A DNA stretch of 64,000 nucleotides, from the NCBI RefSeq assembly GCF_038443705.2, contig NZ_CP151764.2, forward strand, positions 62,001 through 126,000. The letters are read 5' to 3'. The position numbers and the translations under genes were made by a program. Positions 14,732 through 46,157 of the stretch are shown here, piece by piece; the first letter of the stretch is position 1, and every line of letters begins with the position of its first letter. The DNA is from Yoonia sp. SS1-5 (GTDB taxonomy: Bacteria > Pseudomonadota > Alphaproteobacteria > Rhodobacterales > Rhodobacteraceae). The notes beneath the pieces are model-generated. The model saw only the letters and a list, made by a program, of their open reading frames with translations. It made no database searches and was not told the DNA's origin.

Positions 14732-14780
14732 GCCAATCCCCTGCCCCAACTGGTCAGCACTTATCCACAGAACTGACTGT

Positions 14781-14840
14781 ATGCTAATTAAGGGTGCAGT
14801 ATGGTAATTAAAGGTACAATATGAAAAATAAGGATACAAC
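14781..14840 (+). repeat. Three head-to-tail 20-bp repeats at the tniA end
   Basis: Three consecutive 20-bp units (14781-14800, 14801-14820, 14821-14840) each start ATG and share TAATTAA(A/G)GGTACA with a few changes. With the terminal copy at 14874-14901 they form an ordered array like the TnsB-binding sites of Tn7-like right ends. The tniA promoter and start must lie within or just downstream of this array, so transposase may repress itself. Confidence 0.7.
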
Positions 14841-14901
14841 GCGCCGCTGAAAACAAACGATAATTTCAAGCGTGATTCTGATTAATTAGGGTACAGTGAC
14901 A

Positions 14902-16619: not shown

Positions 16620-16776
16620 AGTCAAGGTCTCAATCCCTTCCAAGTACCCACCGATATTCTCAGCTCTAAGCGCCGCTGGCACGAAACAGTTAGTAGTGCC
16701 TGACCAAGTGGTGTGTTATTCGCTAAGCTGGTATAAGAAATCCTAGTGGTCACAAGGTATTGGAGGGCTTTATGCC

Positions 16777-17520
16777 ATGAGAACTGTCGACAAGGCGTTC
16801 ACTGTTCTTAATCAGTTTTCCCTTTCCAACAAGGAAATCGGGCTGAGCGAAATGGCACGCATGACCGGCTTGGACAAAGCGGCGACGCGCCGGATTTTTG
16901 TCGCATTGATGAAGCACGGCTTTATCGAACAAGCTCCGGAAACCAAACGTTACATGCTCGGACACGGCTTCCTGCGCCTTGCACGGATCAGAGAGGCGAC
17001 CGTGCCTGTTAGCCAGATCGCAAAGAACGTGGTCACTTGGCTGGTAGGCCAGACGAATGAAACCGTCCACGTCAGCGTCCCCGGCCCGCAGGGCATGACG
17101 ACCATAGCGCATGAACTGCCCAATCGCGGTCGCGTGGTGAATATCATCCCCGCACAGATATTGAACTATCACGCGACAGCGTCAGGGCTCGTTTTTCTCG
17201 CCTTCGCGACCGAAGAGACAGCAGAGCGCATCCTGTCATTGAAGCGGGAGAAAATCACGCCAGAAACCATAACATCAAAGACGGACCTAAAACGGCAGGC
17301 AGAACAGTTTCGGAGCCAAGGGTATTCGCAGACACGGAACACATTCGAAGGTGATGTCGCCAGCATCGCGATGCCGTTTTTTAGTGAACCGGGTGATCCG
17401 ACAGGGTCTATCGCCATTGCATTGCCAACATCAGAAATGACCCCGGCGCGTTGCGAGATCCTCATTCCACAACTCAAAGAAGCGGTCAGGCAGATCGAAC
17501 TGGCATTGACCGGCCTTTGA
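16777..17520 (+). CDS. IclR-family transcriptional regulator
   Basis: 247 residues from ATG at 16777 with GGAGGG upstream. Residues 1-65 form the IclR winged helix (VDKAFTVLNQFS, then LSEMARMTGLDKAATRRIFVAL); the C-terminal effector domain has the family pattern LVGQTNETVHVSV, NYHATASGLVFLAF and a final SIAMPFF. It is convergent with the aldehyde dehydrogenase/TctABC operon (12-bp gap). IclR proteins commonly control neighbouring catabolic genes, so its target may be that operon or the divergent aminotransferase operon; this is inferred from position. Confidence 0.88.
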   Translation: MRTVDKAFTVLNQFSLSNKEIGLSEMARMTGLDKAATRRIFVALMKHGFIEQAPETKRYMLGHGFLRLARIREATVPVSQIAKNVVTWLVGQTNETVHVSVPGPQGMTTIAHELPNRGRVVNIIPAQILNYHATASGLVFLAFATEETAERILSLKREKITPETITSKTDLKRQAEQFRSQGYSQTRNTFEGDVASIAMPFFSEPGDPTGSIAIALPTSEMTPARCEILIPQLKEAVRQIELALTGL

Positions 17521-17532
17521 TGGTTGAACGCG

Positions 17533-19020
17533 TTACAGTTTGATCCACGCCGTTTTAAGATCGACATATTTGTCAAAGGCATGAAGCGACTTGTCATGCC
17601 CGTTCCCTGATTGTTTGACACCGCCCATTGGCACGGTCACATCGGGCCCGCCGTATGTGTTGACGTGCACAACACCGGTGCGCATCTCACGCACCATACG
17701 GTGCGCACGCGACAGATCTGCGGTCCAGACGCCGCCAGCCAAACCGAAATCAGTGCAATTGGCCTGACGGATCGCCTCCGCTTCATCCGCAAAGGCAGTG
17801 ACTGCAAGAACCGGGCCAAACACTTCTTTCTGCACAACTGCATGTTCTGGCTTTGCATCCGTGATGATGGTGGGTTCCATGTAGAACCCGCCAGTGTCTT
17901 CCAGAATACGCTTGCCGCCGTGAACGACGTTCCCGCCTTCTCCTTGTGCCGCTTCGACAAAGGCAAGGTTCTGCGCCAACTGCGTGGCGTTGTTAATCGC
18001 GCCCGCATGGGTGGAAAGATCAAGCGGATCACCCACGTTCATCGCTGCCGCCGCTTTCGCCAAGGCGCTGACGAATTCGTCGTGAATGCTCTGTTCGACC
18101 AGCAGCCGTGAGCCTGCGACACAGACCTGCCCTGAATTGCGGAATATCCCGGCGGCGCTGACAGCGGCTGCTTCCTCAAGGTTTTTGGCATCTGCGAAGA
18201 CGATGTTGGCAGACTTGCCGCCCAGTTCGAGGTAGCAGCGTTTCATGTTTGAGGCGGCAGAGGCTTGCAACAGCCGCCGACCCGTGGTGCCTGATCCGGT
18301 GAAGGCGATCACATCGACATCCATAGAGGTGGACAGCGCCTCACCAACGATCTTGCCTTCGCCCGTCACCACATTCAAAACGCCGGGCGGGATGCCCGCC
18401 TCCAATCCCAGTTCTGCCATGCGGATCAGGGACAAGGATGCAGTCTCGGACGGTTTCAGGACAACTGAATTCCCGGCGGCCAGGGCGGGGCCCAGCTTCC
18501 ATGCGCCGATCATCAACGGGAAATTCCACGGGATGATGGCCGCGACGACGCCAATGGCTTCGCGGTGAATCAGACCCAGCGTATCATCAGACGTTGGTGC
18601 GATCTCACCATAGATTTTGTCGATAGCTTCGGCATAATAGCGGATGGTTCCAATGGCAGAGCCGGGTTCAGCGCGTAGGGCCATGCTGATCTCTGTCCCG
18701 TTGTTGCGCACCCCCAGAACGGCAAGCGCCAAGGCCTCTGCTTCCATCAGATCGGCCCATTTCAGCATGATCTTTTTGCGCGCAGCGGGGGGCATCCCGC
18801 GCCAGCGCTTGTCTTCAAAGGCGCGGCGTGCGGCGGCAATGGCGCGCTCGGTGTCTTCGACAGTTCCCGCTGCCGTTGTTGTCAGGACAGTGCCATCAAG
18901 CGGCGAGATTACGTCATCTGTCTTGCCCGAAACACTTGGCACACTTTGCCCGTCGATCAACAGCCCACGCGGGGTCAGTGCCGTGTTGCGCAATGCGTCG
19001 ATCTTTGCTTGGTCTGCCAT
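17533..19020 (-). CDS. NAD(P)-dependent aldehyde dehydrogenase
   Basis: 495 residues from ATG at 19020, chosen because AGGTAA precedes it and the family begins there; the frame stays open 32 codons further up. All catalytic landmarks are present: IIPWNFPLM with Asn166, LELGGKS with Glu265 and SGQVC with Cys300. It resembles the betaine-aldehyde/gamma-aminobutyraldehyde dehydrogenase group. It follows tctCBA on the same strand with a 4-bp gap, so it belongs to the transport operon. It probably oxidises the aldehyde made by the class III aminotransferase at 22245-23597 to the acid. The exact aldehyde is unknown. Confidence 0.9.
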   Translation of the reverse strand: MADQAKIDALRNTALTPRGLLIDGQSVPSVSGKTDDVISPLDGTVLTTTAAGTVEDTERAIAAARRAFEDKRWRGMPPAARKKIMLKWADLMEAEALALAVLGVRNNGTEISMALRAEPGSAIGTIRYYAEAIDKIYGEIAPTSDDTLGLIHREAIGVVAAIIPWNFPLMIGAWKLGPALAAGNSVVLKPSETASLSLIRMAELGLEAGIPPGVLNVVTGEGKIVGEALSTSMDVDVIAFTGSGTTGRRLLQASAASNMKRCYLELGGKSANIVFADAKNLEEAAAVSAAGIFRNSGQVCVAGSRLLVEQSIHDEFVSALAKAAAAMNVGDPLDLSTHAGAINNATQLAQNLAFVEAAQGEGGNVVHGGKRILEDTGGFYMEPTIITDAKPEHAVVQKEVFGPVLAVTAFADEAEAIRQANCTDFGLAGGVWTADLSRAHRMVREMRTGVVHVNTYGGPDVTVPMGGVKQSGNGHDKSLHAFDKYVDLKTAWIKL

Positions 19021-19024
19021 TGGA

Positions 19025-20545
19025 TTACCTTTGCTGCGTATCGTGAAGTTCGTGATCGATATCTGCCTCGGCCAGACGCACCTTGTGCTCTTTTCGCAAG
19101 GTTCTGAAATGCGCAAGGATCACCAGAACGATCAAGACGGCTAAGATTGCTGCAATGGGCCGTTCCACAAAATCAAGGGGCGTTTTGACCCGGATCATGG
19201 CCGAGCGCAGTTTGACCTCCATGATCCCGCCCAAAACCATGCCAAGGACAATTGGAACCACTGGCAAATTCAGGCGTTTTAGGATCAGGCCCAACACACC
19301 AAAGCCCGACGCAATGGCGCAATCCACTACAGAGTTGCGCAATGAATACACGCCCACAAAACCCAGCGTCAAAATGACCATGCCCAGAAAGCGGGTCGGG
19401 ATCTGGATCACTTTGGTCAGCAGGTTGGTGGAAAAGATCAGGAAGACGATCACGATCACATTCAATAGCAGCATTGCGATATAGAGCGCATAAACAAAAT
19501 CAAGCTGGTTCTGGAACAGCTGCGGACCGGGGATGACGTTGTGAACATAAAACACCGAAAGCATCATCGCAGTCAGTGCTTCGCCGGGAATACCCAATGC
19601 CAAGAGCGGGATCATCGCAGCCGCAGGAACCGCATTGTTCGCAGCCTCCGAAGCTACCAATCCTTCGGGCGACCCTTTGCCAAACAACTCCGGCGATTTG
19701 GATGTCTTACGCGCATAGGTGTAGGAAAGGAATTGCGCGGTGAATTCCCCCACACCCGGGATCATACCCATCAGAACACCAAAACCACCCGCGGCTGTCG
19801 CAATGCGTTTGAACAGCCAGATTTCCTTGAGCGCGCCAAAGATGCTACCCAGGACAGGCTGCGGTTTGGGCGCTGAATCTTTGTCCGTCAGCAGCAGGAA
19901 GGCTTGGCTTAGCGCGAAAAGCCCCAGCACCACCACGATCAGATCAAAGCCACCCGTCAGCCAAGTCTGCTCAAACGTCATTCGCTGGTTGTACTTTACA
20001 TCCAATCCAACGGTGTTGAGCAACAACCCGAAGGCGGCCAGCATACCAGCGGCAAAAACCTGACCCCGGTGGGCCAGAACAACCAGAACAATGCCTAACA
20101 GCGCTGCCAAGAAAATCTCGCGGCTTCCGAAATGAGGCGCAATCAACGCCAGCAGCGGCGACAGCAGGATCAGACACAAAATACCGAAAACACCGCCCCA
20201 GAAGGACGCGGAGTAGGCCAATGCCAAGGCGCGCTGTGCCTTTCCTTCTTGGGTCATTGGATAGCCATCATAGGTCGTCAGGGCGTTGACCGCTGTGCCT
20301 GGCGTATTGATCAAAATCGCAGGCAGCGCGCCGCCATACATTGATGATCCGTAAATGCCCAAGAGCATCGTCAGGCCGACAATGGGATCAAGCGAAAACG
20401 TGGCGGGCAGCAAGATGGCAATCGCGACGGCAGCACCAACGCCGGGAATCGCGCCAATCACAACCCCCCCGATTGAGCCAATGAACAGGGCGACCAACAC
20501 ATCCCATCGCATCAAGAGTTCCGCACCGGCGAATACAGTTTCCAT
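19025..20545 (-). CDS. tctA: TTT transporter large permease, TctA family
   Basis: 506 residues with about 11-12 membrane segments. The TctA signature GAIPGVGAAVAIAILLP (~27-43) is present, as are YGGALPAILINTPGT and the second internal repeat GMIPGVGEFTAQF. It forms the large membrane subunit of a secondary tripartite tricarboxylate transporter that works with a periplasmic TctC receptor. It is co-transcribed with tctB (11-bp gap) and the aldehyde dehydrogenase. The substrate is set by the TctC partner and need not be citrate. Confidence 0.92.
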   Translation of the reverse strand: METVFAGAELLMRWDVLVALFIGSIGGVVIGAIPGVGAAVAIAILLPATFSLDPIVGLTMLLGIYGSSMYGGALPAILINTPGTAVNALTTYDGYPMTQEGKAQRALALAYSASFWGGVFGILCLILLSPLLALIAPHFGSREIFLAALLGIVLVVLAHRGQVFAAGMLAAFGLLLNTVGLDVKYNQRMTFEQTWLTGGFDLIVVVLGLFALSQAFLLLTDKDSAPKPQPVLGSIFGALKEIWLFKRIATAAGGFGVLMGMIPGVGEFTAQFLSYTYARKTSKSPELFGKGSPEGLVASEAANNAVPAAAMIPLLALGIPGEALTAMMLSVFYVHNVIPGPQLFQNQLDFVYALYIAMLLLNVIVIVFLIFSTNLLTKVIQIPTRFLGMVILTLGFVGVYSLRNSVVDCAIASGFGVLGLILKRLNLPVVPIVLGMVLGGIMEVKLRSAMIRVKTPLDFVERPIAAILAVLIVLVILAHFRTLRKEHKVRLAEADIDHELHDTQQR

Positions 20546-20556
20546 AACCTGTGATC

Positions 20557-21096
20557 CTAAAAGTAAGTCAGCATGAAAGAACGTAACGCCGTCGGCAGCA
20601 GCTCATAGGCGGCACCGCCAGGCACTTTCACCTGAAGAAATGTCTTGAAAATCAGAACAACGACGCATCCGAACATTGCCGCAGACAAGAGCATCTTGGC
20701 GCTGCGATAACCAAGTCGGAACGTCAGAATGACGGCAAACAGAACAGTTGACGGCAAATAGCCAAGTTGCGGCACCGTCAAAACGTAGACCATGAACCAG
20801 CCTGCGTACTCGACCGATCTCAACCAGAACCACATCTCCTTCCAGCGGCCCTCCAAGGCCGGGGAAACCAATGCAGAAATAAGGTGAAGAACGGCAAAAA
20901 ATGCCATCGCAATCACCGCCGCATAGGGCCAAAAGGCGGGTTGCGCGAACAGCTTGGTGTTGCTGGCCCAAGTGTTCTGGTTTGGTAGACTAAGCAGCAA
21001 CAGAAGACTGAATATCAAGAAAGCGATACTGAAATAGAGATCGCCTGGCCGCCGATACCTCTTAAAAAGGTCCTGTAGCGTTTTCGCTTTGATCAT
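20557..21096 (-). CDS. tctB: TTT transporter small permease, TctB family
   Basis: About 179 residues with four predicted membrane helices, as usual for TctB. I chose ATG 21096 (MIKAKTLQ) because GGAAGG precedes it; the ATG at 21126 lies at the edge of the stem-loop that follows tctC. It partners tctA in the membrane. It is poorly conserved by sequence, so the call rests on size, topology and its place between tctC and tctA. Confidence 0.82.
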   Translation of the reverse strand: MIKAKTLQDLFKRYRRPGDLYFSIAFLIFSLLLLLSLPNQNTWASNTKLFAQPAFWPYAAVIAMAFFAVLHLISALVSPALEGRWKEMWFWLRSVEYAGWFMVYVLTVPQLGYLPSTVLFAVILTFRLGYRSAKMLLSAAMFGCVVVLIFKTFLQVKVPGGAAYELLPTALRSFMLTYF

Positions 21097-21123
21097 CTGC
21101 ACCTTCCAATACGCGATGACTTG

Positions 21124-21153
21124 CAAAAGGCGGGACTTTTTGCCCGCCTTTTG
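21124..21153 (-). terminator. Intercistronic stem-loop after tctC
   Basis: A perfect 11-bp inverted repeat (CAAAAGGCGGG at 21124-21134 and its complement at 21143-21153) lies between the tctC stop and the tctB start. It could partly terminate transcription or protect the tctC message so that the binding protein exceeds the permease. Confidence 0.65.
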
Positions 21154-21180
21154 CCGAACTTATTGGTTCAAATTTGCAGG

Positions 21181-22116
21181 TTATTCGAGCATCGCGTTGA
21201 TCTTGCCCAACGCAATTCCGTCAGCTTCGATCTGCTTTACCGTATCTGCGGCATCCTGCCAGTAAACCAATGCGCCTGTCTCTGCCATGTACGTCTTGGC
21301 ACGCTCAGATGTCATGGTTTCTTTTGCCACGGCGATGATCTTCTCACGCACATCAGCAGGCGTATCCTTGTGCACGAACAAACCATTCCACAAAGACAGC
21401 GCCAGTGAAGGATCGATTTCACCAACAGTAGGCGTATCCGGGGTCAGGCCAATGCGCTCCCCGCCGATGGATGCCAGTACCTTAACATCACCCAGGCACG
21501 GCAGAATGGATTGGATGGTCGTGTTCATTACGTCAACGTCACCAGATGCCAGCGTGTTGCAATCCAGAAGGTCAAAAGCCGCGTCAGCAGCGAATGCAAA
21601 CCCCTTTTGCTTTGCCAGTGCGAATGTCACCTTTGTTGGAATCAAAGGCGCGCCGTAGTGACCCAGAGCGACGTCGTTGCTTTTGGCGTATTCCGCCAGC
21701 TCATCAACAGAATCATAGGGCGCATTACCGCCCGCGACGATCACAAACGGATACGTAAGGAACGCACCGAGTGGCTCAAAAGGGTTCGGGTTCAGCTCTG
21801 GGATGCCGATATTTGGGCCGATCACAGGAACCGCAAGAATGAATGAACCGACCGTGTAGCCATCAGCGGGCGCTTTGGCGACTTCAACCGCGCCGGGGAA
21901 TGGGCCACCGCCGCCACCGGGCTTGTTCACCACGGCCGCTGGAACGCCGTACTTGGCCTGAAAATCGTCCGCAATCATGCGCGTCAGCACATCTTCGGAA
22001 TCACCAGGAGGCCAGGGAACAACAAACTCAACTGGTTTTTCCGGATATTCAGCCGCGGCAACGCCCGGCAAGACAGCCATCAGCGAAGCCACGCCGGCCA
22101 ATAGTACTTTCTTCAT
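21181..22116 (-). CDS. tctC: TTT transporter substrate-binding protein, TctC family
   Basis: 311 residues. Residues 1-22 are a Sec signal peptide (VLPGVAAAEYP). The mature protein starts with YPEKPVEFVVPWPPG, the typical TctC/Bug opening, and carries NKPGGGGG (~65-72), a ligand-loop hallmark. Three Cys residues in the second half are unusual in number for the family. It is the first gene of the operon tctC-tctB-tctA-aldehyde dehydrogenase, and divergent from the aminotransferase operon across 128 bp, which suggests shared control. Bug-type receptors bind carboxylates; here perhaps the zwitterionic substrate of the neighbouring catabolic genes. Confidence 0.9.
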   Translation of the reverse strand: MKKVLLAGVASLMAVLPGVAAAEYPEKPVEFVVPWPPGDSEDVLTRMIADDFQAKYGVPAAVVNKPGGGGGPFPGAVEVAKAPADGYTVGSFILAVPVIGPNIGIPELNPNPFEPLGAFLTYPFVIVAGGNAPYDSVDELAEYAKSNDVALGHYGAPLIPTKVTFALAKQKGFAFAADAAFDLLDCNTLASGDVDVMNTTIQSILPCLGDVKVLASIGGERIGLTPDTPTVGEIDPSLALSLWNGLFVHKDTPADVREKIIAVAKETMTSERAKTYMAETGALVYWQDAADTVKQIEADGIALGKINAMLE

Positions 22117-22244
22117 TTTTTTCTCCCCTGCATATCGGTGCGTTATTCACACCGTTGGTGAAATTTAGTTTGACGTAAAATCCAACATCTGTCAACATTC
22201 TTGAAATCAACCTGTAGATGACATTCCCGAGAAAGGACCGCCCC

Positions 22245-23597
22245 ATGAAAGACGACAACTTTCTGAAGGAAAACAATGCACGGCACATGTGGCACCCGAT
22301 GACCCACCCTGCCGACAGTTTGACCAACCCGCCAAAGATCATCACCGGCGGCTCCGGGGTGCGCATTGTGGATGTTGACGGGAACGAAACCATCGATGCT
22401 GTAGGTGGGCTGTGGAACGTCAATCTGGGCTATTCATGCGCGCCAGTGAAAGAAGCCATCGCTGGTCAGCTTGAGCAGCTTCCATACTACTCAACCTTCC
22501 GCGGCACCTCCAATGATGCGGTGATTGAACTCAGCTTTATGCTGCGAGAGTTCTTTGCCCCTGACGGGCTGAGCCGTGCGTTCTTTACCTCTGGCGGCTC
22601 GGACGGGATAGAGATCGCGTTGCGCCTTGCGCGCCAGTACCACAAAGTGCGGGGAGAAGCGGGTCGGACGAAATACCTAAGCCTGAAAAAGGGATATCAC
22701 GGCACCCATACCGGAGGTGCCTCGGTAAACGGCAACCCGAACTTCAGAACGCAATATGAACCGCTGTTGCCGGGCTGCTTTCATATTCCCGCACCATATA
22801 CATACCGCAATCCGTTTAATGAGACAGACCCCGAAAAGTTAGCGCAGCTTTGTCTGGCTGCCCTTGAAGACGAGATTAACTTCCAAGGGGCCAGTACAAT
22901 TGCCGCTTTCATTATGGAGCCCGTGTTGGGCGCGGGCGGTGTGATCCCGCCGCATGCCAGCTTTATGCCCGGCGTGCGTGATATTTGTGATCGCAACGGT
23001 ATTTTGCTGATTGCCGACGAAGTGATCACCGCCTACGGCAGAACGGGATCTTGGTCCGGTTCGCGCCACTGGGGTGTTCAGCCCGACTTTTCCGTCACAG
23101 CCAAGGCCATCACCAATGGCTACTTCCCTTTTGGTGCGGTGATGATCGCCGATCATGTTGCGGAGACATTTGAGAACGACGAAACGGGCAAGGCAAATGT
23201 CGCCTCTGGCTACACCTATTCAGGGCACCCGGTCGGCGCAGCGGCGGCAATCGCCTGTCTGAAAGAAACCCAGCGGCTAAAGGTAAACGACAACGCAGCC
23301 GCGCGTGGTGCTGAAATGATGGCCGGACTGGAGGCATTGAAAGCCAAACACGACATTGTCGGCGACGTGCGCGGTGGCGAAGGCCTGATGAACGCCCTCG
23401 AGCTGGTTTCAGACCGCGCCACCAAAAAGCCCCTAGATGCGGCGCGCACCAAGACGGTGTTCGACACGGCCCATGCAAATGGCGTGATGGTGCGCGTTTC
23501 TGGCCCCAACCTGATCCTGTCGCCTCCGCTTGTTGTGACCCAGCAGGACGTGGCCGATATCCTCTCAGCGCTGGACAAAGGATTGGCAGCAGCATGA
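22245..23597 (+). CDS. Class III (omega-amino acid:pyruvate-type) aminotransferase
   Basis: 450 residues from ATG at 22245 with GAAAGGA upstream. A fold-type I PLP enzyme: FTSGGSDGIEIALRLA (phosphate cup), KKGYHGTHTGG, IAAFIMEPVLGAGGV, LIADEVITAYGRTG with the cofactor Asp, and the Schiff-base Lys in TAKAITNGYFP (~residue 289). Family members move amino groups from beta-alanine, GABA, taurine or polyamines to pyruvate. It leads a four-gene operon and overlaps the next gene by 4 bp (ATGA). Its aldehyde product could be taken by the neighbouring aldehyde dehydrogenase. Confidence 0.9.
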   Translation: MKDDNFLKENNARHMWHPMTHPADSLTNPPKIITGGSGVRIVDVDGNETIDAVGGLWNVNLGYSCAPVKEAIAGQLEQLPYYSTFRGTSNDAVIELSFMLREFFAPDGLSRAFFTSGGSDGIEIALRLARQYHKVRGEAGRTKYLSLKKGYHGTHTGGASVNGNPNFRTQYEPLLPGCFHIPAPYTYRNPFNETDPEKLAQLCLAALEDEINFQGASTIAAFIMEPVLGAGGVIPPHASFMPGVRDICDRNGILLIADEVITAYGRTGSWSGSRHWGVQPDFSVTAKAITNGYFPFGAVMIADHVAETFENDETGKANVASGYTYSGHPVGAAAAIACLKETQRLKVNDNAAARGAEMMAGLEALKAKHDIVGDVRGGEGLMNALELVSDRATKKPLDAARTKTVFDTAHANGVMVRVSGPNLILSPPLVVTQQDVADILSALDKGLAAA

Positions 23598-26059
23598 CCA
23601 AACAACTCCCTTCCTCGGCTCCAGTTGTTATCATCGGGGGTGGCATCATCGGCATGTCGACGCTCTACCACCTAGCGCACCGCGGGGTGTCTGCTGTTTT
23701 GGTCGAACGACGCAAGATTGCCAGTGGAACCACCTGGCATGCGGCAGGTATTGTCGGGCAATTGCGTGACAGCACGGCGCAAACGGAATTAGGCAAATAC
23801 ACCGCCCGTCTGTTCCGTGATCTGGAAGAAGAAACCGGGCAAGGCACGGGGTACAAGCAAAACGGCACGATCAATATCTCGCTTAGCAATGTGCGTCATG
23901 AACAGCTGTTGCGCACACATGATCACGCCGCGCGCATGGGTATCCCCAGCAAGATGCTGTCACCCGAAGAGGTCAAAGAACAATGGCCCGCGCTGGTCAT
24001 CGACGATGTACAGTCTGGCTTCTTTGTGCCGTCCAATGGGCAGGTGAACCCACTGGATGTCACGATAGCATTGTCCAAAGGCGCCCGCCAAAAAGGCGCG
24101 CAGGTGTTTGAAGAAACGCGAGTTGAACGCTTGGAAATTCGCGATGGCAAAGTTGTGGGTGTTGTCACCGATCAAGGCACCATTGCCACCGAACAAGTGC
24201 TGATCGCTGGTGGCATGTGGTCACATCTGTTCGCCAAATCCCATGGGATCACGGTGCCCCTTCATGCGGCAGAGCATTTTTACGTTGTCACAGAACCTGT
24301 GGAAGGTCTGCCTTCTACGCAACCCATACTCAACATCATGGAAGAGCGGAACTATTGGAAAGAGGACGCAGGTAAAATCCTGATTGGCGGGTTTGAGGCG
24401 CAGGGCAAGGCCTGGGCACAGGACGGCATTCCCGAGGATTTCGAATTTGATGAACTGCCTTTTGACATGGACCATGTCGAGGAAGACCTGATGCGCATGT
24501 TCGCGCGCATGCCCTCGCTTGAAACCATGGGCATTCAGACGTTTTTCAACGGTCCCGAAAGTTTCACACCTGATGGCCGCCCATATTTGGGCCCCGCCGC
24601 CGAGGTGAAGGGCGTGTTTCTCGCCACCGGCATGAACTCCAACGGTATTCTAAATTCTGGCGGAACGGGCCTGACGATGGCCGAATGGCTCATAGAGGGT
24701 ATGCCCTCACGTTCCATGGCCCCGCTGCTGGCTGTGCGCGCGCATCCATTTCAGGCCAACACGCGGTACAATCAGGACCGAGCTGCGGAAAGCGTGGGCT
24801 TTCACTACGGCATTTCATGGGCCGGGCGGCAGGTTCATTCCGGGCGCGGCGTGCGGCGCGTGCCCTTGCACCGCGCGTTCAAAGATGCAGGTGCCGTGAT
24901 GGCAGAACGCATTGGCTGGGAAGTGCCAATGTACTTTGATGCAGACAATCCGCAGTGGTCCGATACGCCGTCATTACGCTGGAAACCCTGGTCCGAGCAG
25001 GTCAAGGCCGAGTGTCTGGCAGCACGGGATGCAGCTGTGTTGCTGGATCAATCCATGTATGCGAAAATCCTTGTGCAGGGGCCCGATGCCGCTCGTGCGC
25101 TGAACCATGTGTGCGGCGCACAGATGGATGTCGATGTGGGCATTTCTGTCTATTCGCAGTTCTTGAACGTGAACGGCGGGATTGAAGCGGATGTCACAGT
25201 GACCCGCATCGCACCGCAGTCCTTTATGGTGGTCACGGGCCATCCTAGCCAGATGCGCGACCAATTCTGGTTGAAATCCAACGCCGATCCGTCGTGGAAC
25301 TTTGAGGTTTTCGATGCAACTTCGGCCTATTGCCTATTGACGTTGCACGGTCCCAAATCACGCGAAATTCTCCAATCTCTCAGCAATGACGACCTATCCA
25401 ACGAGGCGTTTGCGTTCGGGGCCGCCCGCGAAATTGACGTCGCTCATGCGCGTGGTTGGGTGATCCGGCGCTCCTTTCTTGGAGAGTTGGGTTACGAGAT
25501 GATGTTCCCGACGGAATTCACCGAAGGTGTATACGAGGCGCTGCTCGACGCAGGCGCGCCTCACGGCCTGCGCCACATGGGCATGTTCGCGATGAACGCC
25601 TGTCGCATCGAAAAGGGCTTTCGTCATTTCGGCCATGACATTGCCGAAGATGACACGCCGTATGAGACAGGTCTGGGCTTTGCGGTCAAGCTGGACAAAG
25701 ACGACGACTTTCTTGGCAAAGCACGGCTGGCCCAGCAAAAAGCCGAGGAAGGTCCCGCGTACAAACACCGCATGGTGTCGATCAAAGTGCCGGGCCTGAC
25801 TGCCGAAGAAGGCCCCTATCTGATCCACAACGAACCCATCTGGAAAGACGGGGAGATCGTGGGCCATGTGACGTCAGGCGATTGGGGTTTCCGTCTGGAA
25901 GCGATGGTCGGACTTGCAACAATCGAAAAACAGGGCGGCGCGGCTAAGGCCTGGATCGACGAAGGCGGGTTCGAGGTGCAGATCGCGGGCAAGATGTACG
26001 CAATCGAAGCACAGCTTGGCCCGTTCTATGACCCCAAAGGCCAGATTATGCGCAGCTAA
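23594..26059 (+). CDS. FAD/GcvT-domain amine demethylase (dimethylglycine/sarcosine dehydrogenase-like)
   Basis: 821 residues. The N-terminal half is a DAO-type FAD domain: VVIIGGGIIGMSTLYHLA (~11-28) and SGTTWHAAG, where His49 matches the residue that holds FAD covalently in dimethylglycine and sarcosine dehydrogenases. The C-terminal ~400 residues form the FAO_M/GcvT aminomethyltransferase module (LDQSMYAKILVQGPDA, then LTLHGPKSREIL and a final PLKD-like barrel), which passes the methyl carbon to tetrahydrofolate. It should oxidatively remove N-methyl groups from a secondary or tertiary amine. It is translationally coupled to the aminotransferase. The substrate cannot be fixed from sequence. 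Confidence 0.88.
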   Translation: MTKQLPSSAPVVIIGGGIIGMSTLYHLAHRGVSAVLVERRKIASGTTWHAAGIVGQLRDSTAQTELGKYTARLFRDLEEETGQGTGYKQNGTINISLSNVRHEQLLRTHDHAARMGIPSKMLSPEEVKEQWPALVIDDVQSGFFVPSNGQVNPLDVTIALSKGARQKGAQVFEETRVERLEIRDGKVVGVVTDQGTIATEQVLIAGGMWSHLFAKSHGITVPLHAAEHFYVVTEPVEGLPSTQPILNIMEERNYWKEDAGKILIGGFEAQGKAWAQDGIPEDFEFDELPFDMDHVEEDLMRMFARMPSLETMGIQTFFNGPESFTPDGRPYLGPAAEVKGVFLATGMNSNGILNSGGTGLTMAEWLIEGMPSRSMAPLLAVRAHPFQANTRYNQDRAAESVGFHYGISWAGRQVHSGRGVRRVPLHRAFKDAGAVMAERIGWEVPMYFDADNPQWSDTPSLRWKPWSEQVKAECLAARDAAVLLDQSMYAKILVQGPDAARALNHVCGAQMDVDVGISVYSQFLNVNGGIEADVTVTRIAPQSFMVVTGHPSQMRDQFWLKSNADPSWNFEVFDATSAYCLLTLHGPKSREILQSLSNDDLSNEAFAFGAAREIDVAHARGWVIRRSFLGELGYEMMFPTEFTEGVYEALLDAGAPHGLRHMGMFAMNACRIEKGFRHFGHDIAEDDTPYETGLGFAVKLDKDDDFLGKARLAQQKAEEGPAYKHRMVSIKVPGLTAEEGPYLIHNEPIWKDGEIVGHVTSGDWGFRLEAMVGLATIEKQGGAAKAWIDEGGFEVQIAGKMYAIEAQLGPFYDPKGQIMRS

Positions 26060-26079
26060 AGCGCTTCGGGAGGAAAGAC

Positions 26080-27318
26080 ATGACTGACAAAACCATTTTG
26101 GTCGTTGGCACATACGACACCAAGAATGATGAGCTAGAATACATGGCCGACCGCATCCGCGCTATGGGCGGTGGTGTGATGAGCATGGACATCTCTGTGT
26201 TGGGTGACCCTGAACGGGCAACTGACATCTCCAAACATCAGGTGGCCGACGCAGGCGGGCAGACCATTCAGGCCTTGATTGATCAAGGCGAAGAAAGTGT
26301 CGCTATGCAAGCCATGGCTGATGGCGCAAGTGCGTTGGCCCGATCTTTGCAAGCAACAGGCAAATTCGACGGCGTGGTAATCCTTGGTGGGTCGATGGGC
26401 ACGGATGCGGCGCTGGATATCTGTCAGGCCTTGCCCTTGGGCGTGCCGAAATACGTAGTCTCTACCGTGGCTTTTTCACCGATCATCCCGGCTGACCGCT
26501 TGTCGGCGGACATCCAGATGATCCTTTGGGCGGGCGGGCTTTATGGCTTGAACCCGGTGTGCAAAGCGTCCTTGTCCCAAGCCGCAGGTGCCGTGTTGGG
26601 TGCCGCGCGTGCGGTGGAAATACCAAGCAACGAACGCCCTTTGGTTGGCATGACTTCACTCGGCTCGTCCTGCCTAAAATACATGAAACTGTTGAAAGGC
26701 CCTTTGGAGGAACGCGGCTTTGATGTTGCTATCTTCCATGCAACCGGCATGGGCGGCATGGCTTATGAAAGCATCGCGCGCAGTGGTGGGTTCGCCTGTG
26801 TGATGGACTTTGCCTTGCCCGAGTTGGGCAACTTATTGGCTGGATCGGTGATCAACGGTGGCGAAGACCGCATGTTGAACGCAGGTGCCGCAGGCATCCC
26901 GCAAATCGTGGCTCCGGGCTGTCTCGACCTGATTGATTTTGCCGGATGGCAGGATATCCCCGACCGCTACAAAGACCGCCCGTTCCACCCCCACAACCGC
27001 CTGATCGTGTCGTCCGGTCTGAATGCCGAAGAACGCAGGGAAACCGCGCGCGAAGTGGCGAAACGTTTGAAAGCATCCGCCACGCCCGCCCATGTGATCC
27101 TGACGAACAAGGGCATTGAAGAATGGGACAAGGAAGGTGGTCCTGCCCATGACCCCGACGCCTTTGCCGAATTCTGCGACGAGATGCGCCGCGTCATGAC
27201 TGACCCCATCACGTTCACTGAACTGGACTGCCACATCAACAATCAGGCCTTCGCCGACAAGGCGCTGGAGATTTTCGATGCGTGGATCGCGGATGGCACA
27301 ATCAAGACGGAGACCTGA
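26080..27318 (+). CDS. UPF0261/Tm-1-like protein
   Basis: 412 residues, AGGAAAG ribosome site before ATG 26080. It opens with ILVVGTYDTKNDELEYMADRI and has LGGSMGTDAALDICQ, GMTSLGSS and HATGMGGMAYE, the pattern of UPF0261, which shares the ATP-binding fold of the tomato antiviral protein Tm-1. The biochemical role is not known in bacteria. It often sits in catabolic operons, as here, between the GcvT-type demethylase and the flavoprotein (spacings of 20 and 3 bp). It may activate or rearrange a pathway intermediate; that is speculation. Confidence 0.85.
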   Translation: MTDKTILVVGTYDTKNDELEYMADRIRAMGGGVMSMDISVLGDPERATDISKHQVADAGGQTIQALIDQGEESVAMQAMADGASALARSLQATGKFDGVVILGGSMGTDAALDICQALPLGVPKYVVSTVAFSPIIPADRLSADIQMILWAGGLYGLNPVCKASLSQAAGAVLGAARAVEIPSNERPLVGMTSLGSSCLKYMKLLKGPLEERGFDVAIFHATGMGGMAYESIARSGGFACVMDFALPELGNLLAGSVINGGEDRMLNAGAAGIPQIVAPGCLDLIDFAGWQDIPDRYKDRPFHPHNRLIVSSGLNAEERRETAREVAKRLKASATPAHVILTNKGIEEWDKEGGPAHDPDAFAEFCDEMRRVMTDPITFTELDCHINNQAFADKALEIFDAWIADGTIKTET

Positions 27319-27321
27319 GAC

Positions 27322-29373
27322 ATGAGAGACCCGCGCTACGATATCCTGTTTGAACCGGTAAAAATCGGGCCAATCACGGCCCCGAACCGTTTTTTCTCAG
27401 TCCCCCATGCGACGGGTCATAACCCGCTGATGCCAAACGGCTCTATCGGGATGCGCGAGATGAAGGCCGAAGGTGGCTGGGGCGTTGTGTCGATGCAATT
27501 GGCCGAGATTGATCCGACCTCCGACATCTCGAACCTCCCGATTGAGAAATTCTGGGACGATACGGATGTGAAATCCCATGCGCTACTTGTAGAGCGGATC
27601 AAGAAACACGGGAGCCTGACTGCAATTGAGCTGGCCCATACCGGCATTCGCGCGCGCAACATGGATACGGGCACGCCCGTGCTTGGGCCTTCGTCCATGC
27701 GTATCTTAAAGCCGCAAAACCCGATCCAGTCCAAGGCGATGGACAAGCAAGACATCAAGGATTTCCGCGAAAGCCACAAACGTGCCGTGCACCGCGCCAA
27801 ACAGGCGGGCTATGACATGGTCTATGTATATGCCGCCCATGATGCTGCACTTGTCTGGCACTTCCTCAACCCGATGTACAACCACCGCACAGATGAATAC
27901 GGCGGATCGTTTGAGAACCGCCTGCGCCTGCTGCGCGAGGTTCTGCACGACACGATGGAAGCCGCCGCAGGGGATGTGGCCGTTGCCGTGCGCATCCCAG
28001 CACATGATTTTAAGGAAGGCAGCCCGCTGACCTATGACAACGAAGCACGCGCCGTGATCGAAAGCCTCGCCGACGTGCCGGACCTGTGGGACGTGAACGT
28101 CGCAGGCTGGCCCCGTGATAGTGGCACCTCGCGGTTTGACGACGAGGGACATCAGGAAAAATACACTGGCTACGTCAAGCAAATCACGTCAAAGCCCGTG
28201 GTGGGCGTGGGGCGCTATACCTCTGTCGATGCGATGGTCGGGCTGGTCAAGAAAGGTGTGTTCGATCTGATCGGGGCATCTCGTCCTTCGATTGCCGATC
28301 CGTTTCTACCAAACAAGGTCAAAGAAGGCCGCATCGACGATATCCGTGAATGCATCGGCTGCAATGTCTGCGTGTCCTCGGATGCTTACTCCGTGCCGTT
28401 GATGTGTACGCAAAACCCGACGATTTCGCAGGAATGGCGGCGCGGCTGGCACCCCGAGAATATCCCTGCAGCACCAAGGGCCGAAAACACATTGATCATC
28501 GGCTCCGGCCCTGCGGGTCTGGAATGTGCGTTGACGCTTGCGAAAGCAGGGCACACCGTCACCATTGCGGAAAAAGACGCAGAGTTTGGTGGACGGGTGC
28601 GCCATGAAAGCGCGCTGAAAGGGCTGGCGGCCTGGGGCCGTGTCAAAGACTACCGGCTCTATCAATTGCAGCAGATGGGCAATGTTTCTCTCTACGCCGA
28701 AAGTGAAATCGCGCCGGGCGATGTGGCGGATTTTGAGGCGGACAACATCATCGTCGCAACCGGGTCCAAGTGGTGCAACAGCGGTGCGGGTGCCACGACG
28801 TTCAGCGCGATTGATGGCTTTGCAGAGCATGCGATCACGCCAGACGACGTCATGGCAGGTGCAGAAATCAACGGGCCGGTCGTGATCTATGATGATGATC
28901 ATTACTACATGGGCAATGTATTGGCCGCGCATCTGGCCTCACTTGGACATGAGGTGCATTTGGTTTGCCCCCTGCCCTCAATTGCGGAATGGATGGGGTA
29001 TACGTTAGAAAGCCCGCGTGTTCTGGACCAGATGGTTGAGCTTGGCGTGCACATGCATCCCAACACCACCGTGAAGTCATGGACCGGATCAGCATTGAAA
29101 GTCACCCGCAGTGACAGCGGTACTGACATGTCGGATATTGCTGGCGGTACGTTGATCAGCGTCGGTGTCCGCAACCCCTCAGACGGACTGTTGACTGCGC
29201 TCAAGGATATGTCGGAACTGGCGGACAAAGTCAGCGGCATCGGTGATTGTCTGGCCCCCGGCATCATTCAGGCGGCAGTGTTCTCGGGTCATGCCGAAGC
29301 GCGCAAACGGATCGGTGACGAGCCGAAAAACGGCATCTACAAACGCGAAACGCCGGTGCTGTTTCCTCGGTAA
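27322..29373 (+). CDS. Trimethylamine-dehydrogenase-like FMN/[4Fe-4S]/FAD oxidoreductase
   Basis: 683 residues. An old-yellow-enzyme-type TIM barrel (1-~340) is followed by a [4Fe-4S] motif CIGCNVC...C (Cys344, 347, 350, 362; CX2CX2CX11C) and an NAD/FAD-binding half beginning TLIIGSGPAGLECALTLA. This is the layout of trimethylamine dehydrogenase, dimethylglycine dehydrogenase DgcA and 2,4-dienoyl-CoA reductase; the CIGCNVC spacing is closest to the first. Position 30, a Cys carrying covalent FMN in trimethylamine dehydrogenase, is Ala in PHATGHN, so FMN should be non-covalent. It probably oxidises an N-methylated intermediate. It is the last gene of the forward operon. Confidence 0.85.
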   Translation: MRDPRYDILFEPVKIGPITAPNRFFSVPHATGHNPLMPNGSIGMREMKAEGGWGVVSMQLAEIDPTSDISNLPIEKFWDDTDVKSHALLVERIKKHGSLTAIELAHTGIRARNMDTGTPVLGPSSMRILKPQNPIQSKAMDKQDIKDFRESHKRAVHRAKQAGYDMVYVYAAHDAALVWHFLNPMYNHRTDEYGGSFENRLRLLREVLHDTMEAAAGDVAVAVRIPAHDFKEGSPLTYDNEARAVIESLADVPDLWDVNVAGWPRDSGTSRFDDEGHQEKYTGYVKQITSKPVVGVGRYTSVDAMVGLVKKGVFDLIGASRPSIADPFLPNKVKEGRIDDIRECIGCNVCVSSDAYSVPLMCTQNPTISQEWRRGWHPENIPAAPRAENTLIIGSGPAGLECALTLAKAGHTVTIAEKDAEFGGRVRHESALKGLAAWGRVKDYRLYQLQQMGNVSLYAESEIAPGDVADFEADNIIVATGSKWCNSGAGATTFSAIDGFAEHAITPDDVMAGAEINGPVVIYDDDHYYMGNVLAAHLASLGHEVHLVCPLPSIAEWMGYTLESPRVLDQMVELGVHMHPNTTVKSWTGSALKVTRSDSGTDMSDIAGGTLISVGVRNPSDGLLTALKDMSELADKVSGIGDCLAPGIIQAAVFSGHAEARKRIGDEPKNGIYKRETPVLFPR

Positions 29374-29380
29374 GGCCGTC

Positions 29381-30418
29381 TCAGGCTTTCCGTCGCGCGA
29401 TGGCATCCGCCAAAACACAAAGCAGCTCCCAAAGCATGGTTGATGCGACGAGGGCTGTATTTCCGGTCTGATCAAACGGCGGTGATACTTCAACCACGTC
29501 ACCGCCAGCAAGGTTCAATCCTTGAAGGCCACGCAACAGCTTTTGAACATCGCGCGGTTGCAGCCCGCCGACTTCCGGCGTGCCTGTTCCCGGCGCAAAC
29601 GCGGGATCGATGCTGTCGATGTCAAAAGACACATAAGTGGGGCCATCGCCGACGATCCTGCGCGCCTCAGCCAGAACCGCATCAAGGCCCATTTCATAGA
29701 CTTCTTCGATGTGGATCACGCGCATCCCGCTGTCATAGGAAAAATCCCAATGCGGCTCTGCGCGGCCACGGATCCCAATCTGCACTGTACGCTCGGGGTC
29801 CAGCACCCCCGCAAGGGCTGCGTTGCGAAATGGGCCACCGTGATGAAAACGTGAGCCGTTGAAAGGACCGCCGGTGTCGGCATGGGCATCGATATGGATC
29901 ATGCCAACCGGCGCGTCACGCCCCACCGCTTTCAAGATCGGATAGCTGATTGAATGATCGCCCCCTATAGAGAGCGGCATCACTCCGGCATCAATGACTG
30001 TGTGAAAGAAAGCCTCAATCTCTTGCGTGGCTTTGTCCAAATCATAGGTACTGGCGATGGGTACATCCCCGCAATCGGCAAAGCGTGCAATTGCAGCCGG
30101 GATGATACCACTGACATGGTGCTTGGGTCCGGCAGCCAAGACAGACAATTCGCGCACTTGCTGGGGACCAAAGCGCGTCCCCGGCCGGTTGGTCACGGCC
30201 AGATCGAAGGGCACGCCAATAAGCGCGATATCCAACCACTCAAACCCGGCCTGCAAGGGCGCGCGCAGGAAGGATGAAATGCCGGCATAGGGGGCAACGT
30301 GTTCGCGCTTGTCCCCACCATGCGCGCCGCCGCTGTCCAGAAATGCCTGCAAGGCCTTGTCGTTCAGATCGGTTTTTGCTGCCAACGCCCGCAGATGTTC
30401 AAGTTTGCTATTGGCCAT
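29381..30418 (-). CDS. Ureohydrolase (agmatinase/guanidino-acid hydrolase family)
   Basis: 345 residues. The Mn-binding motifs of the arginase superfamily are intact: GGDHSI (~150), MIHIDAHADTGG with its Asp and His ligands (~170), and SFDIDSIDPAFAPGTGTPE (~255). It hydrolyses a guanidino group to urea plus an amine. The ~60-residue N-terminal extension (ERVAPYAGISSFLRAP-like) is typical of guanidinobutyrase/guanidinopropionase rather than short arginases. It lies 66 bp after the Rieske gene in one operon, which links guanidino cleavage with N-demethylation or hydroxylation. The name agmatinase alone would be over-specific. Confidence 0.88.
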   Translation of the reverse strand: MANSKLEHLRALAAKTDLNDKALQAFLDSGGAHGGDKREHVAPYAGISSFLRAPLQAGFEWLDIALIGVPFDLAVTNRPGTRFGPQQVRELSVLAAGPKHHVSGIIPAAIARFADCGDVPIASTYDLDKATQEIEAFFHTVIDAGVMPLSIGGDHSISYPILKAVGRDAPVGMIHIDAHADTGGPFNGSRFHHGGPFRNAALAGVLDPERTVQIGIRGRAEPHWDFSYDSGMRVIHIEEVYEMGLDAVLAEARRIVGDGPTYVSFDIDSIDPAFAPGTGTPEVGGLQPRDVQKLLRGLQGLNLAGGDVVEVSPPFDQTGNTALVASTMLWELLCVLADAIARRKA

Positions 30419-30484
30419 TGTTCACCCTTGAGACGGAACCACCATCTTGGCGCAATCATGCCCAAAGTTCCGTCTTGGGTAAAT

Positions 30485-31704
30485 TCAAATCAGCCCGCGC
30501 TGCTCAAGATACCATTTCCCGAACTCTGCGATCCACACCTCGCGGTCGGACAACACGCCGGGCCGATATCCTCGAGAGGCCACGCCAAGCTGATTGTTTT
30601 CTGTAATGGTTTTATCTTCCTTCAGCGTCGTATCCCAAAGATGCATCAAGGTTTGCGGATCATAATCCGTCCCTTCCTCCGCATCGGGGGCCACCAACCA
30701 GATCGCCTCGACCGTTGTTTCCTGCGTATCTTTGGGGATGAACAGGAAAATGACCGCATGGTCGTTGTTGACCAGGACAGTGGAAAGCGGAGAGAATACG
30801 CAGCCCGTTTGCCCGCCGTCGAATTCAGCTAAGTCGCCCATCAAAGGTGCAATCGGCTGGCCATCCATGCTTTCGGTAAGCGCGCCCTTGGCGATAGGCA
30901 ACCTGTTGGCGGCCTGAAAATACGCCGATGTGGCATCATCATGGAACATCCCAGTCGGATAGCCTTTTGCCTCAGCTTCCGCCTCCCACTCAGCAAGCCA
31001 CTTGCGATGATCCGCCATTTCAGGATCATCCGAGCGGTCGACCGCACCAAAGGCAAGCAGCTTCATTTTGTCATGTACCTGACAATAGCTGGGATGCGCG
31101 GTTGAACAGTGGTAGCATTCGAAAAAGTTATCAACGACCAGCTTCCAGTTTGCATTGGTCGGATAGGTTTTGCGGGCGGCAACCTTGGTCTGGGCAAGCC
31201 CCTGCCCGTGCATCAGAGGGGCAAATCGCTGCGTAAAGGTGGTGAAATCTGGCGCGTCCATCTCAGCCGCGAAGTTGACAAAAATCAGACCCTCAAAAAC
31301 ACCCACGTTGATTGGCAGCAGGCCATTTGCGCTTTTGTCAAAGCCTTCTGGCATGGAGGCGGCGGCGCGCAGCTGACCATCAAGATCATAGCTCCACGAA
31401 TGGTAGGGACATGTGAACAGACGTTTGTAGCCCTCGTTTTCAAGACAAACCCGCGATCCACGATGACGACAGGCATTGTGAAACGCCTTGACCTCACCTT
31501 CTTTGTTTCGGGTCACAATGACGCTTTCGTTCCCGATCGCGTACAGAAAGAAGTCACCGGCATTGGGAATTTGTGAAATATGTCCGGTCAAAAACCATTG
31601 AGATTTGAGAAGCCAATCCAAATCGTCCCGAAAAACCTCTTCAGAGACATAAAGCTCTGCCGGAAGCGACGTGCCGTAGGCCCAGGTTGAAACTGTATCT
31701 TTCA
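30485..31704 (-). CDS. Rieske non-heme iron oxygenase, quaternary-amine demethylase-like
   Basis: 406 residues from ATG at 31704 (GAAGGAG-like site); the open frame further up has no homology. The Rieske cluster is Cys79-x-His81 ... Cys99-x-x-His102. The catalytic domain shows NWKLVVDNFFECYHCSTAHP with the bridging Asp and iron-binding His pair. It most resembles the glycine-betaine/stachydrine/carnitine oxygenase group, which cleave C-N bonds or demethylate quaternary amines. No reductase partner is encoded nearby. It is divergent from a TetR gene with two palindromic operators in between and is co-transcribed with the ureohydrolase. Confidence 0.87.
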
Positions 31705-31739
31705 TCGCAAGCTCCTTCTCAATATGTTCATTCCGTGAT

Positions 31740-31787
31740 ACATACCGCGAGGTCGGTATGTCAATAGATACATACCACGTGGTATGT
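31740..31787. promoter_or_regulatory. Two TetR operators between Rieske gene and tetR
   Basis: Site 1 is ACATACCG, six bases, CGGTATGT (31740-31761). Site 2 is the perfect 18-bp palindrome ACATACCACGTGGTATGT (31770-31787). Their shared half-site ACATACC and close spacing fit cooperative binding of the adjacent TetR regulator, controlling both directions. Confidence 0.75.
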
Positions 31788-31798
31788 AGGGGCACATC

Positions 31799-32338
31799 AT
31801 GGCGAAGCAAAAATACAACCGTGCCGACATGTTGCAAACGGCGCGTGACATTATTCGTGAAAAGGGTGCCGCAAAGTTGACCATACAGGAGGTCGCCACA
31901 CGCATCGGCGCGACAAAGGGTGCGATCCTGCATTGGTATCCCAGCAAACTGGCGTTGATAGATGCGGTGGTAAGCTCACAAATTGATGACTGGGACGCCA
32001 GATATGATGAAAACGCGTCCCGGGACCCCTCACCAAACGCGGCGCTGTTGACGTACCTCAAGACCTGGGAAGAACATTATGAAGAGCAAGCATCATATGC
32101 TGAAGCGGTTCTTTTGTTACTGGCCGAGGAACCCGACAGATTGGCGTCAGTGCGCGAAGCCTACTCTCGTTATTCCCGGCCCTACCTTAAGCAAGCCGAT
32201 CATAACTTTGACCCGCTTCTTCTTTGGTTGGCATGCGAGGGTCTGGAAGCCCTGAGGCTACTGAAACTCCTTGAGGTTTCTCCCAAATTGCGCACCAAGA
32301 TCTACGCAGAGATCAGATCAAGGGCAACATCGCTCTGA
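31799..32338 (+). CDS. TetR-family regulator of the Rieske/ureohydrolase operon
   Basis: 179 residues from ATG at 31799 (TAGGGG upstream). HTH at residues ~10-55: MLQTARDIIREKGAAKLTIQ, then VATRIGATKGAILHWYPSK. The C-terminus is a helical ligand domain, short for the family, with DUF-like PLLLWLACEGLEALRLL. Its gene faces the Rieske gene across two palindromes, so it very likely represses that operon and itself until the substrate appears. Confidence 0.85.
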   Translation: MAKQKYNRADMLQTARDIIREKGAAKLTIQEVATRIGATKGAILHWYPSKLALIDAVVSSQIDDWDARYDENASRDPSPNAALLTYLKTWEEHYEEQASYAEAVLLLLAEEPDRLASVREAYSRYSRPYLKQADHNFDPLLLWLACEGLEALRLLKLLEVSPKLRTKIYAEIRSRATSL

Positions 32339-33761: not shown

Positions 33762-33786
33762 GACGAAATCCTCAGGCGGTTTGGGG

Positions 33787-44168: not shown

Positions 44169-44192
44169 GGCTTCAGCTTTTTGCATACTTGT

Positions 44193-44230: not shown

Positions 44231-44253
44231 GTATCGAAAGGACGCAACTGCGA

Positions 44254-46130: not shown

Positions 46131-46157
46131 CAAATCATCAAACCAACGGAGAAAGAC

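Follow-up and report, generated by a model that had tools for sequence, protein, structure and literature searches.

A candidate module for N-methylated phenethylamine catabolism in two copies on one replicon of Yoonia sp. SS1-5

Yoonia sp. SS1-5 carries an apparently undescribed set of catabolic genes, in two copies on one replicon, and we hold with moderate confidence, from its sequence, that this set would degrade an N-methylated 4-hydroxyphenethylamine (hordenine, N-methyltyramine or a close relative). One copy lies in the window analysed here, a stretch of 64,000 nucleotides (C1:62001-126000; contig NZ_CP151764.2) from a genome of 4.47 Mb in two contigs. As C1 (335,732 bases) is much shorter than C2 (4.13 Mb), we place the genes on the smaller replicon (336 kb). 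The island at window positions 16777-32338 consists of two units, a core (16777-29373), which is the module in question, and a TetR-Rieske-ureohydrolase unit (29381-32338). An earlier note on this DNA had read the whole island as one route for an omega-amino-acid betaine or N-methylated guanidino acid. Every gene type that it named is present as an uninterrupted open reading frame (ORF). The accessible part of the open-licence PubMed Central (PMC) literature yielded no described pathway with this gene set, in line with the note, whose author knew of none, and no gene cluster for the breakdown of N-methylated phenethylamine alkaloids.

The core encodes the following products (window coordinates):

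16777..17520, + strand: IclR-family regulator; nearest NCBIfam PcaR/PcaU/PobR, 115 bits (below the cut-off of 285)
17533..19020, - strand: aldehyde dehydrogenase (ALDH), PuuC-like but scoring under the PuuC cut-off; start codon placed by reference to homologues and to where TctA ends
19025..20545, - strand: TctA, large membrane subunit of a tripartite tricarboxylate transporter (TTT), by gene order and recurrence with TctB and TctC
20557..21126, - strand: TctB, small membrane subunit (Pfam match)
21181..22116, - strand: TctC, periplasmic binding protein (Pfam match)
22218..23597, + strand: class III aminotransferase (AT3); PRK07481, 718 bits (cut-off 575)
23594..26059, + strand: putative FAD and GcvT-domain N-methyl amine dehydrogenase, dimethylglycine dehydrogenase (DMGDH)-like, by domains and TWHAAG motif
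26080..27318, + strand: UPF0261 protein; PRK02399.1-4, 603 bits (cut-off 556)
27322..29373, + strand: putative FMN-4Fe4S amine dehydrogenase resembling trimethylamine dehydrogenase (TMADH), histamine dehydrogenase and HisD, by domains, motifs and fold

Domain matches were obtained in the core to IclR, Aldedh, TctB, TctC, Aminotran_3, DAO with GCV_T and GCV_T_C, UPF0261, and Oxidored_FMN with Pyr_redox_2, and in the adjoining unit to Arginase and to Rieske with Ring_hydroxyl_A; five of the island's gene products have relatives in the PDB. TctA, on which Pfam was not run, has no NCBIfam match and is assigned from order and recurrence; on that assignment, the three Tct genes together encode a TTT.

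A second core lies on the same replicon at C1:229.8-265 kb. Its products are 93% (AT3), 92% (DMGDH), 90% (TctA), 88% (TMADH), 84% (ALDH and TctC), 82% (UPF0261), 75% (TctB) and 69% (IclR) identical to those of the window copy. Copy 2 additionally encodes the electron transfer flavoprotein (ETF) EtfBA, 67 and 72% identical to rhizobial ones, and has a HAD-family gene immediately before AT3. Directly after TMADH comes a 3-oxoacid (acetoacetate) CoA-transferase pair, ScoAB, followed by an AraC-type regulator nearest FeaR (158 bits, below the cut-off of 199), then by nitrilase-family, PPOX-type flavoprotein and ABC importer genes. Beyond these are genes encoding HmgA, FAH, an MBL-fold protein, a PRK08132-type flavin monooxygenase, IclR2, a sulfatase-family protein and TMADH2. 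The hmgA gene lies 13.0 kb from that of DMGDH, and IclR2, 69% identical to the window IclR, is encoded directly downstream of the hmg genes. The best PDB matches of the monooxygenase are polyketide-type oxygenases, which are uninformative. FAH of copy 2 is in two ORFs (L078:11854-13224; C1 255853-257223) and may be interrupted or missequenced; the chromosome has a further hmg cluster with a full-length FAH.

Two enzymes of the core are candidates for N-methyl removal. The DMGDH-like protein belongs to its family by having DAO, GCV_T and GCV_T_C domains in one chain and TWHAAG at position 47, presumably the histidine motif for covalent FAD. It matches human DMGDH (5l46) over residues 7-780 with 410 bits; its FAO_M score is slightly below the cut-off (25.5 vs 27), and among the best 25 NCBIfam families no cut-off is reached. 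These features suggest that it acts as an N-methyl amine dehydrogenase. The TMADH-like protein is a member of the TMADH/histamine dehydrogenase family, with an FMN barrel, a CxxCxxC...C pattern that we take to be the 4Fe-4S cysteines, and Tyr170, His173 and Asp266, presumably the amine-oxidation residues. In TMADH, Cys30 binds FMN covalently and Tyr60, Trp264 and Trp355 form an aromatic bowl. The island's protein has Ala in place of Cys30 and is thus not TMADH proper. In an alignment of 28 TMADH-like sequences, Ala stands at position 30 in all 28 and Leu at position 60 in 23, position 354 is Asp (14), Glu (13) or Trp (1), and only Trp263 of the bowl is retained (27/28). The top fold match is HisD (6l6j), an arylalkyl N-methylamine oxidase, at 45% identity; within error, TMADH equals it by fold and histamine dehydrogenase does so by sequence score. 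HisD is the 6-hydroxypseudooxynicotine amine oxidase of nicotine catabolism, of which no other gene was recognised.

The core recurs in other genomes. Starting from the DMGDH-like query, we searched GTDB contigs with six exact peptide patterns, annotated the loci with the window's proteins and judged lineages by record title. DMGDH-like genes with core neighbours, the core being more or less complete, were found at no fewer than 54 loci, a lower bound biased to close relatives given the exact patterns; several of these contigs end beside the core. UPF0261 is encoded at 53 of the 54 loci (all except L054; fragments counted), an IclR-like protein (identity of 35% or more across half of its length) and TctA at 39 each, TctC at 36, TMADH-like at 35, ALDH at 29 and AT3 at 24, with variable gene order and strand. 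The core grouping is therefore beyond chance; the Rieske-ureohydrolase unit does not share this recurrence. Within the family, DMGDH occurs at E <= 1e-280 in three of 295 genomes, own included, and G339, a genome assigned to the same genus, lacks a close core, its best DMGDH match being 44%. Seven rhizobial loci (7/54) also carry EtfA, EtfB, FolD, ETF-QO and acetoacetate-CoA ligase (972 bits in L035, cut-off 521), and PurU is encoded at eight loci, these seven and L014. ETF and folate genes are in keeping with N-demethylating enzymes of the TMADH and DMGDH types, and the rhizobial loci thus support N-methyl removal by both the FAD/GcvT and the FMN enzyme. An acetoacetate ligase or CoA-transferase would be in place at the last stage of the homogentisate pathway.

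Ring-cleavage genes also neighbour the core elsewhere. Distances to hmgA, and to hutH as control, were counted for 45 of the 54 loci (omitting L017-L021, L040, L042, L044 and L052), with the DMGDH position missing in two of the 45 genomes (E 1e-250 not reached). HmgA (TIGR01015) is encoded in 40 of the 45, in 39 over the cut-off. Twelve of the 45 genomes have hmgA at most 20 kb from the core DMGDH gene: G152 (14.4 kb), G160 (5.9), G165 (18.4), G172 (8.6), G173 (10.9), G174 (14.0), G175 (10.9), G176 (10.3), G178 (8.8), G183 (14.0), G184 (14.0) and G187 (8.0). A thirteenth case is a cut hmgA fragment, below the cut-off, 14.0 kb from DMGDH in G188; more distant genes lie 53 kb away in G179 and 1.7 Mb away in G153. 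By record title the 13 neighbours form six groups. The hutH gene, the sole control family, is over the cut-off in 32 of the 45 genomes, but in no genome does it come within 20 kb of the core; a paralogue below the cut-off is about 35 kb from the core in G153. G165 has hmgA and FAH, but neither the monooxygenase nor the MBL gene was seen there. Locus L049 encodes HpaE (757 bits, cut-off 638), HpaD (411 bits, cut-off 321), an HpaG-like protein (below the cut-off) and a pyridoxal phosphate (PLP) decarboxylase, all between the Tct/ALDH genes and DMGDH. HpaD and HpaG-like proteins, of the homoprotocatechuate route, are each encoded at three of the 54 loci (L049, L009 and L037) and HpaE at two; in the Yoonia genome itself HpaD is not over the cut-off.

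The UPF0261 protein, a member of its family by sequence and fold, has Saro_1862 of Novosphingobium (9mpy), solved with acetovanillone, as its best Foldseek and profile match (29-30% identity; motifs common to both in the alignment). The substrate of the core is taken to be aromatic because of the hmgA and Hpa neighbours, the ring genes of copy 2 and this acetovanillone-bound relative. The neighbours indicate an aromatic product leading to homogentisate or homoprotocatechuate, and the betaine or guanidino substrate of the earlier note does not agree with them. UPF0261 probably binds the phenol hydroxyl and, as a predicted kinase, may phosphorylate it. Saro_1862 is of the same family and was solved with a phenolic ligand; here UPF0261 would be coupled to amine demethylation. 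Saro_1862 is perhaps MarK, an aromatic-monomer kinase mentioned in PMC13101465. HpeHI, treated in PMC12167813, is an ATP-grasp/swivel dikinase, and that paper does not name UPF0261; PMC11837543 has nothing on Saro_1862. A variant of the phenethylamine pathway has UPF0261 as 4-hydroxyl kinase and the HAD protein, encoded at 12 of the 54 core loci and in copy 2, as phosphatase, with N-demethylation and deamination taking place on aryl phosphates before homogentisate; we regard it as a tentative and rather doubtful extension.

The TctC-upstream regions of eight loci contain a common palindrome around CACCA-n-TGGTG. In the window the sites are:

22132..22171, + strand: operator-like palindrome in the divergent promoter of TctC and the aminotransferase, presumed IclR-type; score 30.6
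16705..16744, + strand: weak operator-like site upstream of IclR; score 9.6

The matrix behind the score of 30.6 was built from seven non-window sites; elsewhere in the window the next best site scores 15.0, and the maximum in five shuffles is 13.9. Over the whole replicon the best sites are at the TctC promoter of copy 2 (40.4; not seen beforehand), the window site (30.6), IclR2 (20.1) and TMADH2 (16.0). As 20 block shuffles reach up to 20.2, only the two core promoters stand clear. The site upstream of IclR at 16705, inside the shuffle range, is not established. This pattern suggests that an IclR protein governs both core copies through the common palindrome, to which it would bind. In Leisingera (L007/L085) a TMADH2 orthologue (71% identity) lies next to the core behind a near-perfect palindrome of the core type (19.4 by an eight-site matrix).

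The pathway that we propose would begin with import of the N-methylated phenethylamine by TctABC. The DMGDH-like enzyme would take off one N-methyl group as methylene-tetrahydrofolate, and the TMADH/HisD-like enzyme would oxidise the next C-N bond, giving formaldehyde, or methylamine and the aldehyde, both enzymes passing electrons to ETF. The aminotransferase would convert the freed primary amine to 4-hydroxyphenylacetaldehyde and ALDH would oxidise this to 4-hydroxyphenylacetate, while UPF0261 would bind, and perhaps phosphorylate, the phenol hydroxyl. The flavin monooxygenase, HmgA and FAH, encoded beside copy 2, could then lead from 4-hydroxyphenylacetate via homogentisate to fumarate and acetoacetate. 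Among possible substrates the gene content suggests hordenine and N-methyltyramine as the simplest fits. Import, N-methyl removal by the FAD/GcvT and FMN enzymes, transamination and aldehyde oxidation are thus kept from the route first proposed for the island; Rieske demethylation and loss of urea are not.

Two known systems resemble parts of this pathway. The homogentisate branch of 4-hydroxyphenylacetate/tyramine catabolism has HmgA, FAH, the flavin monooxygenase, ALDH and acetoacetate activation in common with copy 2 and other genomes; unlike it, the core adds N-demethylating enzymes, ETF and folate genes, UPF0261 and a TTT importer, and the amine is removed by a transaminase. Glycine betaine/dimethylglycine catabolism (GbcAB, DgcAB or DMGDH) resembles the island in its DMGDH-like FAD/GcvT protein, TMADH-like enzyme and nearby Rieske protein. 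However, the Rieske protein here is far under the GbcA cut-off, and the aminotransferase, ALDH, UPF0261 and ring-cleavage neighbours are foreign to that pathway.

Several observations weigh against a phenethylamine pathway. UPF0261, TMADH, ALDH and AT3 occur together at only 13 of the 54 loci, nine of these with TctA and TctC. TTT importers are best known for carboxylates and are a poor fit to an amine. No ring-cleavage genes are near the window copy, the nearest hmgA on the replicon being about 166 kb off, beside copy 2. In 33 of the 45 genomes there is no hmgA within 20 kb (some contigs end, five have no hmgA match and two have no DMGDH position), and eight of the 13 hmgA neighbours are from rhizobia (Rhizobium or Rhizobiales), the other five (L006, L014, L024, L037 and L049) bearing five different titles. 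A kinase and phospho-lyase pair, unneeded for hordenine, is encoded at 16 of the 54 loci. In fold, UPF0261 matches Saro_1862 (rmsd 8.5, TM 0.57) less closely than it does Tm-1. The score of 30.6 at 22132 is not blind, as the window's own site was in view when the sites of the matrix were selected, and the scores before IclR2 and TMADH2 are within the shuffle maximum.

An N-methylated aromatic amino acid or betaine (tyrosine betaine or N-methyltyrosine), imported by the TTT system and with its decarboxylase or aromatic transaminase encoded elsewhere, is an unlikely substrate. The importer would suit it, DMGDH-like enzymes act on N-methyl alpha-amino acids, homogentisate neighbours are equally expected, and L049 encodes a PLP decarboxylase in its cluster. 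Yet AT3 (24/54), ALDH (29/54) and the flavin monooxygenase beside hmgA better suit a phenethylamine, and HisD and histamine dehydrogenase, by their structure titles, use arylalkylamines.

Degradation of a methylated beta-hydroxy amine, either synephrine-type phenolic or a choline-derived methylethanolamine, via the kinase and phospho-lyase to an aldehyde is quite unlikely for the core as a whole. It draws on the 16 loci with the pair, whose gene content suggests synephrine-type amines, and on the phospho-lyase, whose nearest matches are 5g4i and the human ethanolamine-phosphate phospho-lyase (6tor). The pair is, however, missing from 38 of the 54 loci, and a search covering the replicon of the window, but not the chromosome, did not find it; the choline variant leaves the hmgA and HpaD neighbours unexplained. 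We rejected the pair as an essential part because it is present at only 16 loci. A further protein, P0017, has no PDB relative at E 1e-5.

We consider it very unlikely that the core is a general amine module near hmgA through incidental clustering on catabolic replicons. The 33 of 45 genomes without a close hmgA and the single control family favour such clustering, but hutH is near the core in none of the 45, the hmgA association spans six groups by title, copy 2 and the rhizobia add different enzymes for acetoacetate activation, and the UPF0261 relative has a phenolic ligand.

The remaining features of the island are:

29381..30418, - strand: putative ureohydrolase of guanidinopropionase/guanidinobutyrase type (Arginase domain, motifs), outside the conserved core
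30485..31705, - strand: Rieske oxygenase, quaternary-amine group (domains); accessory, adjoining the core in L003 too
31739..31787: two palindromes (TACATACC...GGTATGT; at 31739 and 31769), presumed TetR operators, between the Rieske gene and TetR
31799..32338, + strand: TetR-family regulator, divergent from the Rieske gene

The ureohydrolase has the GGDH, DAHAD and DIDSIDP motifs with the metal ligands of the Arginase family, and its nearest PDB relatives, GpuA (3nip, 333 bits) ahead of GbuA (270 bits), suggest a guanidinopropionase/guanidinobutyrase type; active-site motifs are kept, but here the gene is not conserved with the core (0/54 loci). At E <= 1e-90 its relatives occur in 15 of 149 family genomes, own included, and among the other 14 only that of G062 (77%) exceeds 58% identity. 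In G062, which has no close core, this relative (L082, G062:C6) has as a near neighbour a TctC-like gene whose product is 63% identical to TctC of the window. The Rieske protein has the CxH...CxxH motif, and a pattern search of it for the facial triad gave no match; at 298 bits against an equivalog cut-off of 670 it is not a glycine betaine monooxygenase GbcA. A Rieske gene of the window type occurs at one of the 54 core loci, L003 (78%), directly after TMADH with no ureohydrolase between, and that locus also has one TetR-like palindrome. Family genomes with Rieske relatives number five of 295, own included, the other four at 42-43%; closer ones (81-83%) exist among public proteins, and one, P0145, may neighbour the UPF0261 relative P0023, both contigs being 9499 bases long. 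Being rare beside the core and in the family, the Rieske enzyme is at most a clade-specific accessory, which may extend the range to a quaternary amine.

The core palindrome is lacking at the Rieske/TetR region (-3.1) and upstream of the ureohydrolase (-4.9), and no Rieske or ureohydrolase relative was seen in copy 2 on the same replicon. TetR, Rieske and ureohydrolase therefore form a separate unit attached to the window copy, and a single route through all three operons is not supported; the expected conservation of the gene set applies to the core (54 loci) and not to the Rieske or ureohydrolase gene. A common role of the three operons in degrading a single omega-amino-acid betaine or N-methylated guanidino acid would accord with the adjacency of all the genes, the 3-guanidinopropionase-like ureohydrolase, an aminotransferase and ALDH that also suit beta-alanine-type products, and the Rieske gene beside the core in L003. 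It is most improbable given the counts of zero and one in 54 loci, the absence of both genes from copy 2, the differing operator types and the ring-cleavage genes adjoining the core; the core is probably not a betaine or guanidino-acid pathway.

Further candidates were rejected. Homarine (N-methylpicolinate), considered in the light of PMC13390433, fails as picolinate does not account for hmgA, and beta-alanine betaine leaves the ring-cleavage neighbours unexplained. A choline link through sulfatases showed no consistent association, one of four C20 sulfatases (L005) being 65% identical to the window gene and the others 27-40% in pieces.

Elsewhere in the window, an integrase/transposase-like ORF left of the island (13103-14869; translation judged by eye) is a possible trace of a mobile element. 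Genes at 32697-34710 encode an ornithine cyclodeaminase (PRK07589, 576 bits, cut-off 350) and the citrulline hydrolase CtlX (408 bits, cut-off 334); they adjoin EamA, isochorismatase and ABC transporter genes and are likely a separate arginine/citrulline unit. The stretch 41965-52054, with P5C-reductase-like, DAO, MR/MLE enolase-superfamily, ABC importer, second ornithine cyclodeaminase and class IV aminotransferase genes, is perhaps a betaine/proline-type unit. At 53374-57870, OpuAC-type ABC transporter genes precede the gene of a sulfatase that shares 65% identity with one in L005 and looks choline-sulfatase-like from its context.

If the phenethylamine pathway is correct, the core would provide genes for the bacterial breakdown of N-methylated phenethylamine alkaloids and would connect the degradation of methylated amines with that of aromatic compounds in Rhodobacteraceae and rhizobia. 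The UPF0261 family, which is still labelled uncharacterised and includes the tomato Tm-1 resistance protein, would gain a testable role.

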